Of a stretch of DNA of 64,000 nt, positions 8,572 through 18,006 are shown piece by piece. The notes beneath the pieces were generated by a model. The model was not told the DNA's origin. It worked only from the letters and a program-made list of their open reading frames with translations, and did no database searches. This stretch comes from Rhizobium oryzihabitans (GTDB lineage Bacteria > Pseudomonadota > Alphaproteobacteria > Rhizobiales > Rhizobiaceae): positions 2,748,501 through 2,812,500 of the forward strand of contig NZ_CP048632.1 in assembly GCF_010669145.1 (NCBI RefSeq). The letters are read 5' to 3'. Made by a program: the position numbers and the translations under genes. The first letter of the stretch is position 1, and each line of letters starts with the position of its first letter.

Positions 8572-8601
8572 ATGGATCCTCGGGTCAAGCCCGAAGATGA
8601 C
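8572..8601 (+). repeat. 30-bp REP-like palindrome, copy F1
   Basis: Starts ATGGATCCTCGGGTCAAGCC and ends GAAGATGAC. It is an imperfect palindrome in itself (ATCCTCGGG...CCCGAAGAT). It forms an inverted pair with the copy at 8641-8670. Confidence 0.85.
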
Positions 8602-8640
8602 GGCGGAGAGTGTGGCACTGGTATCGACAAAACCACTGAC

Positions 8641-8670
8641 GTCATCCTCGGGCTTGACCCGAGGATCCAC
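8641..8670 (-). repeat. 30-bp REP-like palindrome, copy R1 (left boundary of the GIY-YIG module)
   Basis: Plus strand starts GTCATCCTCGGGCTTGACCC and ends GAGGATCCAC. It matches the reverse complement of 8981-9010 in 29 of 30 bases, so the two copies form an inverted repeat that tightly encloses the GIY-YIG gene. It ends 10 bases before that gene's stop. Confidence 0.9.
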
Positions 8671-8680
8671 CCCCAAGCCC

Positions 8681-8965
8681 TCATCCAAATTCCCCATAAA
8701 GATCGCGCCACTCCGGATTAAAATCCTCGATCAGCTTGATCTTCCAGTCGCGATACCAGCGCTTCAGCGATTTTTCCCGCTGGATGGCGGTGCCAATGCT
8801 CATATGCTCCTCGTACCAGACGAGCCGTGTACAGCCGTAGATGCTCGTGAAACCTTTCGTCAGTCCTTCGCGATGTTCGTAAATTCGTTGCTCGAGGTTC
8901 GACGTCACCCCGATATAGAGCGTTCCGTGCCTGCCGCTCGCAACAATGTAGACGAAGCCGGTCAA
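8681..8965 (-). CDS. GIY-YIG nuclease family protein
   Basis: This 94-residue protein is a stand-alone GIY-YIG domain. The name-giving motif appears as VYIVAS (residues 5-10) and LYIGVTS (16-22), followed by the conserved Arg in LEQRIYEHREG, the WYEEH segment and the Glu/Lys-rich IQREKSLKRW helix. Such small proteins are presumed metal-dependent DNA endonucleases (YhbQ/UPF0213-like), but activity is rarely shown. It lies in reverse orientation between urtD and urtE, and a 30-bp inverted repeat begins 10 bases after its stop and 15 bases before its ATG. That arrangement suggests an inserted repeat-nuclease module rather than a member of the urea operon. Confidence 0.9.
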   Translation of the reverse strand: MTGFVYIVASGRHGTLYIGVTSNLEQRIYEHREGLTKGFTSIYGCTRLVWYEEHMSIGTAIQREKSLKRWYRDWKIKLIEDFNPEWRDLYGEFG

Positions 8966-8980
8966 GGTGGTCTCTCGGGG

Positions 8981-9010
8981 GTGGATCCTCGGGTCAGGCC
9001 CGAGGATGAC
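8981..9010 (+). repeat. 30-bp REP-like palindrome, copy F2 (right boundary of the GIY-YIG module)
   Basis: Starts GTGGATCCTCGGGTCAGGCC and ends CGAGGATGAC. It is the inverted partner of 8641-8670 (29/30 identical) and also pairs with the copy at 9150-9179. Confidence 0.9.
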
Positions 9011-9149
9011 GGGTGGGTGGGGTTACGTCCAGAGATTATTCCGGGAATGTTGCGAGAAAATTTTCGCTGCCTGGCTTTCCGCCGGCAGGGCGAAACAGCA
9101 AGTCGGAACTCATATCTGGCAAGGTCGCGCTGCGTCCAGCTCACTCCAC

Positions 9150-9179
9150 GTCATCCTCGGGCTTAACCCGAGGACCCAC
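9150..9179 (-). repeat. 30-bp REP-like palindrome, copy R2
   Basis: Plus strand starts GTCATCCTCGGGCTTAACCC and ends GAGGACCCAC, with two differences from R1. With F2 it makes a second inverted pair, spacer 139 bases, just before urtE. Confidence 0.85.
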
Positions 9180-14616: not shown

Positions 14617-16326
14617 ATGCCTTACAAGATTTCCCGCGCCGCCTATGCCGGCATGTTCGGCCCGACCGTGGGCGACAAGGTTCGTCTGGCCGATACCGAA
14701 CTCTTCATCGAGATCGAGAAGGACTACACGACCTATGGCGAGGAAGTGAAATTCGGCGGTGGCAAGGTCATTCGCGACGGCATGGGCCAGAGCCAGGCGA
14801 CGCGGGCCGAGGGCGCTGTCGATACCGTCATTACCAATGTGGTGATCGTTGACCATAGCGGTATCTACAAGGCGGATGTGGGCCTGAAGAACGGGCGCAT
14901 CCACGCCATCGGCAAGGCGGGCAATCCCGATACACAGCCCGGCGTGACGATCATCGTCGGCCCTTCGACGGAGGCAATTGCCGGCGAGGGCAGGATACTG
15001 ACAGCCGGCGGCATGGATGCGCATATTCACTTCATCTGCCCGCAGCAGATCGAGGAAGCGCTGATGAGCGGCGTCACCTGCATGCTGGGCGGCGGCTCCG
15101 GCCCCGCGCACGGCACGCTCGCCACCACCTGCACCGGCGCATGGCACATCGAACGCATGATCGAGAGTTTCGACGCCTTCCCGATGAATCTGGCGCTGGC
15201 CGGCAAGGGCAACGCCTCGCTGCCGGCACCTCTGGAAGAGATGATCCTTGCCGGCGCATCCTCGCTGAAATTGCATGAGGACTGGGGTACGACACCGGCC
15301 GCCATCGACAATTGCCTGACGGTGGCCGATGAATATGACGTGCAGGTGATGATCCACACCGATACGCTGAACGAAAGCGGTTTTGTGGAAGACACGGTTG
15401 CCGCCATCAAGGGCCGCACCATCCATGCCTTCCACACCGAAGGGGCGGGCGGCGGGCACGCGCCTGACATCATCAAGGTCTGCGGCAATCCCAACGTCAT
15501 TCCGTCTTCCACCAACCCGACGCGGCCCTATACCGTCAATACGCTTGCCGAACATCTGGATATGCTGATGGTGTGCCACCACCTGTCGCCGTCCATTCCG
15601 GAAGATATCGCCTTTGCCGAAAGCCGTATCCGCAAGGAAACCATTGCGGCGGAGGATATTCTCCACGATATCGGCGCGTTTTCGATCATTTCCTCCGACA
15701 GCCAGGCCATGGGCCGTGTCGGCGAGGTGGCGATCCGCACTTGGCAGACGGCCGACAAGATGAAGCGCCAGCGCGGCCGTCTGAAGGAAGAGGTGGGCGA
15801 GAACGACAATTTCCGCGTCCGCCGTTACATCGCCAAATATACCATCAACCCGGCCATCGCCCAGGGTGTCAGCCACGAGATCGGCTCCATCGAAGTCGGC
15901 AAGCGCGCCGATCTGGTGTTGTGGAACCCGGCCTTTTTCGGTGTGAAGCCCGAAATGGTGCTGCTCGGCGGCTCGATTGCCGCAGCGCCGATGGGCGATC
16001 CGAACGCCTCCATTCCCACGCCGCAGCCGATGCATTATCGGCCGATGTTCGCCGCCTATGGCAAGCTGCGTACCAATTCCTCGGTGACCTTCGTGTCTCA
16101 GGCGTCGCTCGATGCCGGCCTTGCTGGGCGTCTCGGCGTTGCCAAGAAGCTGATGGCGGTAAAGAACGTACGCGGCGGTATTTCCAAGGCCTCGATGATC
16201 CACAATTCGCTGACCCCGCATATCGAGGTCGATCCCGAAACCTACGAAGTGCGCGCCGATGGCGAGCTTCTGACTTGCGAACCGGCGACGGTGCTGCCGA
16301 TGGCGCAGCGCTATTTCCTGTTTTAA
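14617..16326 (+). CDS. ureC: Urease alpha (catalytic) subunit
   Basis: UreC, 569 residues, the nickel-containing catalytic subunit. The active-site residues are all present: HIH of [12 protein letters not shown], the carbamylated Lys218 in [10 protein letters not shown], the flap Cys320 and catalytic His321 in MVCHHLSP, and the [13 protein letters not shown] region. Length and sequence are typical of bacterial alpha subunits. It begins 4 bases after the GT29-like gene. Separation of ureB from ureC by three unrelated genes is the oddest feature of the cluster. Confidence 0.98.
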
Positions 16327-17709: not shown

Positions 17710-17781
17710 TTGCGGGTTTGCGCAGGCCCGGCAGCGATGTCGTGTCTTCGGGGTATGACAGGAGGCGAAAACCTCTCCTCC

Positions 17782-17811
17782 GTCATCCTCGCCCTTGAGG
17801 CGAGGATCCAT
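17782..17811 (-). repeat. 30-bp REP-like palindrome, divergent copy R3
   Basis: Plus strand reads GTCATCCTCGCCCTTGAGGC and ends GAGGATCCAT. The loop differs from other copies, but compensating changes keep the palindrome CCTCGCC...GGCGAGG. It pairs with 17825-17854. Confidence 0.8.
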
Positions 17812-17824
17812 AGGCGTCTGACGG

Positions 17825-17854
17825 GTGGATCCTCGGGTCAAGCCCGAGGATGAC
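17825..17854 (+). repeat. 30-bp REP-like palindrome, copy F3
   Basis: Starts GTGGATCCTCGGGTCAAGCC and ends CGAGGATGAC. With R3 it forms an inverted pair between the peroxiredoxin gene and ureE, the only gap of this size within that part of the cluster. Confidence 0.85.
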
Positions 17855-18006
17855 CTCGAAAGTGGAGAAAGGTTTGCACCTGGCCCGGCTTTGATGCCGG
17901 GCTTTGTCATTCTTGTGGCCATGTGCCCTGAAATCGCGCCTTGAAATCACCCCGCCTATCCGGCAAAAATCAGGCCCCCAAGACAGTTTCTGAAACGGAT
18001 CATTCC

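Follow-up and report, generated by a model that had tools for sequence, protein, structure and literature searches.

What is a small nuclease gene doing between urtD and urtE in Rhizobium oryzihabitans, flanked by two oppositely oriented copies of a palindrome that is scattered over the whole genome, and do the enzyme and the palindrome belong together? The window, which is the whole 64,000-nt stretch of DNA analysed here, contains the gene, the palindromes around it and a further pair of the same palindrome.

Nuclease gene and repeats in the window

An earlier note on this DNA had described a 94-residue GIY-YIG reading frame that is bounded by 30-bp repeats and splits urtD from urtE. The frame is present (Pfam GIY-YIG, E 4.3e-17) and lies between urtD (TIGR03411, 386 bits) and urtE (TIGR03410, 337 bits), both matched above the model cut-off. 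The two copies, as first delimited at 8641-8670 and 8981-9010, are indeed inverted and identical at 29 of 30 positions, with the single difference in the loop, and longer inverted arms around the gene (8640-8677 and 8974-9011) are 95% complementary. The spacing of 10 nt after the stop and 15 nt before the start was also correctly given, while the start codon is TTG and not ATG as had been stated. The two outer copies and the second inverted pair are real as well (Table 1). The module, i.e., the gene with its enclosing repeats, also occupies this site in records that carry the names Rhizobium rhizogenes and Agrobacterium larrymoorei. Elsewhere in the window, Rfam gave a 5_ureB_sRNA match at 14769-15058 on the minus strand (96 bits).

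Table 1. Positions of the nuclease gene and the REP copies in the window.
Feature	Position	Strand	Remarks
Outer REP copy	8573..8602	-	Tag towards module
CGTC-REP, 3' side of GIY-YIG gene	8640..8669	+	Tag outward; loop CTTGA, tail CCA
GIY-YIG nuclease gene	8681..8965	-	94 aa, TTG start
CGTC-REP, 5' side of GIY-YIG gene	8982..9011	-	Tag outward; loop CCTGA
Outer REP copy	9149..9178	+	Two mismatches; found by repeat search, missed by strict hairpin detector
Gene-less REP dimer, left half	17781..17810	+	8 kb from module
Gene-less REP dimer, right half	17826..17855	-	Tag outward, here GGTC

Nuclease protein

The GIY-YIG domain fills residues 3-76 of the 94-residue protein, which is matched in Pfam by the GIY-YIG and T5orf172 models only, and by no NCBIfam model. 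The conserved Tyr, Arg, Glu and Asn of GIY-YIG nucleases are present, and Y6, Y17, G19, R27, H31, E64 and N83, which we take to be the catalytic residues, are intact in the window protein and kept in 162-165 of the 165 family members. The AlphaFold model shows a confident GIY-YIG fold (pLDDT 94), whose closest solved structures are the UPF0213 proteins 1zg2 and 1ywl, followed weakly by Slx1 branched-DNA nucleases. In the plasmid records examined, the gene is labelled GIY-YIG nuclease, hypothetical protein or "excinuclease ABC subunit C", or is left unannotated.

Sequence and structure of the repeat

The repeat consists of a CGTC tag, a stem arm ATCCTCGGG, a CTTGA loop, the other stem arm CCCGAGGAT and a CCA tail, and the source genome holds 128 copies at no more than three mismatches, compared with none of the backwards-read pattern used as a control. 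Degenerate copies, for instance the one at 9149-9178, escape the strict hairpin detector. Among the first 100 copies listed, 66 are in close pairs, and 32 of these 33 pairs have their CGTC tags outward and lie 13-29 nt apart; the single close pair of opposite orientation belongs to the nuclease locus. The pair that encloses the gene is likewise tag-outward, with its repeats 312 nt apart. Each of the gene-enclosing repeats forms its own hairpin when folded as DNA (z -4.5 and -3.9), and a whole REP dimer, the one that was folded, forms a single long hairpin. Among 25 distinct copies from the genus, eight cells have compensatory changes in the two stem arms and none has a two-sided change that does not pair (shuffled control: mean 0.8, maximum 4), and three of the six cells with a one-sided change still pair as G-T. 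At gathering thresholds, Rfam has no family over the repeat.

The internal spacers of 20 REP dimers from the source genome have no obvious common sequence by eye. As a side observation, the dimers (L257-L276) share about 12 nt outside the CGTC tag, in two motif types, and one of each type is present in 14 of the 20 (P 0.014, for motifs that were picked post hoc).

Enclosure of family genes in other bacteria

The family alignment was searched against 289 genomes of the class (93 with a match), 398 of the phylum (112) and 39 of the genus (21). Of the first nine relatives, all from named genomes, seven carry a strong inverted repeat that surrounds the gene; Roseibium (L009) gave weak repeat matches only, and the Nafulsella sequence (L012) stops at the gene. 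The enclosure test used 140 family genes with at least 300 bp on each side, after seven of 147 without such flanks, and also 11 matches below 90 bits, had been dropped; these loci are mostly best-scoring matches rather than random draws, and the control consists of 1053 mutually overlapping shifted windows from the same loci. Homologs bear such palindromes far beyond chance, in the comparison that the earlier note had proposed: a de novo inverted repeat with a score of at least 18 surrounds 84 of 140 family genes compared with 0 of 1053 controls, and UvrC genes of the source organism's family, which share the domain, are enclosed in none of 19 cases (UvrC is missing in one of the 20 control loci). 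At least one side of the gene has a structural REP in 103/140 cases (controls 67/1053), and both sides have one in 61/140 (controls 6/1053). A strong inverted repeat or a nearby REP is present at 126 of the 140 genes, and 14 have neither. Where the nearest REPs are within 150 bp on both sides, both tags point outward in 47 of 72 genes. When each genome outside the source genus is represented by a single gene, the inverted repeat is present at 58 of 103, and either this repeat or a REP at 92 (0 among 29 control windows), and an earlier subset of class and phylum gave 29/58 enclosed compared with 0/866. The link between the nuclease and REPs is not chance.

As for taxonomic breadth, the Neisseria gonorrhoeae homolog is flanked by dRS3-type repeats, and homologs with CGTC repeats are found in Azospirillum, Sphingobium, S. 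meliloti and Aeromonas. In Novosphingobium, the strong inverted repeat starts with CGTC and was not called as a REP, and the Photobacterium homolog has one REP only, about 170 nt off. In a Gastranaerophilales genome, a strong GTCAC-tagged inverted repeat was seen at a gene that the later profile search did not find. GTCAT palindromes are visible by eye near the gene in Planktothrix (Cyanobacteriota) and Spirosoma (Bacteroidota), where they were not called by the detector and the inverted repeats score only 11-12.

Matching of nuclease clades and repeats

The genus has four nuclease clades, each with its own palindrome, A to D. Palindrome A has the CTTGA loop and the CCA tail, B a CTTGT loop and a CTG or CTA tail, C a GCCGGA stem, and D a CCTC tag and a CCTGTG stem. 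The source genome has clades A, C and D, together with 128, 59 and 138 copies of their respective REPs. Over 116 genes from 95 genomes, the identity of the proteins is correlated with the similarity of their REPs (Mantel rho 0.30, reached in 0 of 2000 permutations). Likewise, when the REP of a gene is compared with those of its best cross-genome homolog and of a same-genome paralog, it is nearer to the former in 14 comparisons and to the latter in five, with one tie. Different versions of the nuclease thus tend, as judged from sequence comparison, to pair with a hairpin version particular to each across many bacteria. Within the genus, the number of REP-A copies tracks the clade-A gene (median 104 vs. 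41, P 0.003), and the number of REP-B copies is not tied to the clade-B gene (median 25 vs. 18, P 0.23).

The median dN/dS of the clades is 0.03-0.07, that of clades C and D coming from only three usable pairs, and mean dS exceeds 1 in three clades; the clade-A nuclease is at a single locus across seven genomes. The gene is under strong purifying selection and mostly sessile.

Palindrome D has a further associate. At least five REP-D pairs, among the 100 of 138 copies listed, have starts exactly 1197 nt apart (G000:C4:1670400-1671625 and four other places), and one of them adjoins the clade-D GIY-YIG gene. Both of the pairs that were opened (L300 and L301, Pfam being checked for L300) contain an IS110-family transposase reading frame, and IS110 seems to target REP-D dimers.

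Co-occurrence across genomes

A generic REP pattern was counted in the 289 class genomes, with a backwards control of 0-2 per genome and strand. At least ten REPs are present in 44 of the 82 genomes where the family match is strong (E at or below 1e-20), compared with 15 of the 207 others, which include 11 weak matches (Fisher 4.7e-17, a P value that is only a guide because the genomes are related). The trend is present in every third of genome size. Seen from the other side, 44 of the 59 REP-rich genomes have the nuclease gene, and the 15 exceptions include incomplete assemblies (e.g., G139, at 81%, and G330, at 64%). Fewer than three REPs of the pattern used were counted in 17 of the 82 gene-bearing genomes. 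The nuclease itself is patchy (93/289 class and 21/39 genus genomes), and REP-A copies persist in 16 of the 18 genomes of the genus that lack a family gene. The nuclease and the REPs are physically linked and covary, and gene-bearing genomes are richer in REPs.

Junctions and possible movement of the module

The urtD-urtE junction was compared in 30 of the 39 genus genomes, the end of urtD being set by a fuzzy motif. The module is present in six and two REPs without the gene in one, and junctions without the module, which the earlier note had suggested looking for in relatives, do exist, e.g., as a gap of 1-2 nt in five genomes. Two more have gaps of 34 or 87 nt, of which the 87-nt gap is a shortened form of a different long palindrome, and three hold an unrelated reading frame. 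That different long palindrome (CCCTCTGCCCTGCCGGGCATCTCC...) was observed at the junction in the other 13 genomes (L044-L046, L048-L051, L054, L055 and L063-L066) and presumably resembles the Rhizobium element RIME1. Around the REP dimers of the urt region in 20 other genus genomes, intergenic DNA is too diverged for exact junctions.

Other conserved gene pairs tell of the same presence and absence. In Azospirillum lipoferum, a module with a different nuclease and REP lies between sufB and sufC, and four relatives are without it, and a clade-B gene with REP-B occupies sufB-sufC in seven genus genomes (L163-L167, L171 and L172) and in Shinella sp. PSBB067 (L296). Since this junction holds both the clade-B pair and the Azospirillum pair, it received two different nuclease-REP pairs. 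At the fnrL junction of Sphingobium plasmids, four have the module, two have one tagged palindrome and two have neither. The gene-bearing unit is thus present in some relatives and absent from others at urtD-urtE, sufB-sufC and the Sphingobium fnrL junction. In Sphingobium L289 and L290, a single palindrome with CGTC at both ends stands where relatives have the module, and it could be either an excision footprint or a pre-insertion target.

Copies of the module within one genome of another genus (G469) lie at different sites and are 75-88% alike. On the left, homology begins within about 5 nt of the tag in five of six comparisons, the sixth extending leftward by some 75 nt more, across another repeat; on the right, it stops within about 5 nt of the tag in the three comparisons with both ends whole, and the boundaries read CTT|CGTC ... 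GACG|AAG. Hence, in this genome, the module is found at unrelated sites with homology that ends at or a few nucleotides from the tags in most comparisons. Three copies in G574, of the same genus, share about 20-50 nt past the tags, and one pair shares about 150 nt. At the five modules inspected over both outer flanks, no target-site duplication was seen by eye. Module-free sites are too diverged for exact ends.

Proposed mechanism and alternatives

According to these results, the best reading is that the nuclease probably acts on its cognate REP and sustains the spread of REPs, in the way that is presumed for RAYT and GTAG-REPs but by means of an enzyme unrelated to RAYT. The suggestion of the earlier note, a RAYT-REPIN-like system with a GIY-YIG enzyme, gains support from enclosure, covariation, co-occurrence and module-free sites alike, and nuclease-driven spread would be the most likely mechanism. 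The nuclease may recognize the tag, stem and loop of its cognate hairpin, either single-stranded or extruded, and cut beside the tag, after which host repair or replication would place a copy of the hairpin unit elsewhere; gene-less dimers would then be non-autonomous relatives of the module. GIY-YIG chemistry is hydrolytic and proceeds without strand transfer, so integration would need help from the host. Because the gene mostly stays put and is under strong purifying selection, the pair is more like RAYT and REPINs than like an active insertion sequence. If the nuclease alone propagates the CGTC-REPs, with enzyme and hairpin diversifying together and gene-less dimers multiplying in trans, this would be a second, independently evolved REP system in alpha-, beta- and gammaproteobacteria, and perhaps in Cyanobacteriota and Bacteroidota.

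An unlikely alternative is that REPs spread otherwise and the nuclease is a homing parasite, which cuts gene-less dimers and has its gene copied in by repair. The gene does often take the spacer position of a dimer, as its tag-outward enclosure in 47 of 72 cases indicates, yet the clade-A gene is at one of dozens of REP-A sites and the clades generally at one or a few loci. Such a parasite would also account for the G469 copies being homologous essentially up to the REP ends, and REPs do seat another element, the IS110-type transposase inside REP-D pairs; however, it allows many REP-rich genomes that are free of the gene, and 44 of the 59 have it.

Less probable still is a domesticated enzyme that trims or resolves REP hairpins, e.g., in replication or gene regulation, without driving their spread. 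The patchy presence of the gene in class and genus, as well as module copies at unrelated sites, indicates that it is selfish at least at times, although strong purifying selection, sessile loci and the nearest structures, UPF0213 and weakly the Slx1 branched-DNA nucleases, would suit such a role. Finally, that small mobile genes and REPs only share tolerant intergenic sites, as the different palindrome (13/30) and the unrelated reading frame (3/30) at urtD-urtE might suggest, is very improbable given the empty controls (0/1053 shifted windows, 0/19 UvrC) and the cognate covariation of nuclease and REP.

Relation to known systems

Palindrome A occurs in high copy number, mostly as opposed dimers. 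Of the palindromes of the genus, A, B and C are tagged CGTC, B with its CTG or CTA tail, and D is tagged CCTC; all four share the layout of the CGTC-REP superfamily, where TGTC or CCTC can stand in place of CGTC. According to the parts of Di Nocera et al. 2013 (PMC3733652) used here, CGTC-tagged REPs "apparently lack a dedicated transposase", their superfamily includes Neisseria dRS3 and Rickettsia RPE-4 and RPE-6, and CCTC was noted as a variant tag. The repeats described here share with that account, as far as those parts go, the tag, a stem of 8-9 bp starting with AT, a loop of 4-5 nt, the CCA tail and the opposed dimers, and differ from it in having a GIY-YIG partner and in the use of CCTC by clade D. 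The chances seem to us about even that the CGTC-REP superfamily is propagated by the GIY-YIG nuclease alone, without the help of a transposase or reverse transcriptase.

RAYT is an HUH tyrosine transposase acting on GTAG-REPs, as the portions of PMC3733652 and PMC8266576 drawn upon describe it. Similar to RAYTs with their REPINs, the nuclease genes are usually few per genome, sessile, and flanked by and matched to many dispersed palindromes; unlike them, the enzyme is a GIY-YIG nuclease on CGTC-REPs. The protein is not itself a RAYT, as only GIY-YIG and T5orf172 models match it and GIY-YIG folds are nearest, with no HUH motif and catalytic Tyr of IS200/IS605 transposases, and its genus has REPs tagged CGTC or CCTC instead of GTAG. 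With an insertion sequence and its MITEs, the system has in common that gene-bearing and gene-less copies share REP ends in the same orientation.

The GIY-YIG domain occurs in selfish DNA, including homing endonucleases and Penelope elements (PMC1564403, in the section consulted), from which the present nuclease differs in being a bare core of 94 aa without a NUMOD or reverse-transcriptase domain. A GIY-YIG homing endonuclease was also considered for it and rejected, because there is no separate Pfam domain and its seat is intergenic, in no known intron or intein. Small stand-alone GIY-YIG proteins of the UPF0213 type (PDB 1zg2, 1ywl) are alike in size and fold and give the best match in both sequence and structure, but the records examined attach no repeat partner or function to them.

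No report of a link between this nuclease and CGTC-REPs was found among the matches listed in open-licence PMC full text, a scope outside which bioRxiv and most subscription papers fall. RayT and GIY-YIG genes appear as separate rows of one table in the part of PMC9465073 seen in that search. The nuclease is a candidate for the missing enzyme of CGTC-REPs, and could be a REP partner of a new chemical class. With a matched nuclease partner, the enzyme question posed in 2013 for CGTC-REPs, including dRS3 and some Rickettsia palindromes, becomes testable. The pairing points to at least two separate acquisitions of a propagating enzyme by bacterial palindromes, from unrelated folds, and, if true, it would assign a role to a small gene that is widespread and now variously annotated.

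In addition, we observed a second small GIY-YIG subfamily (MEVTVYIVRC...), five of whose eight loci (L033, L038, L039, L168 and L174-L177, with 400 bp taken on each side of the gene) are inside inverted repeats of a different type with a score of at least 18, which suggests further nuclease-repeat pairs.
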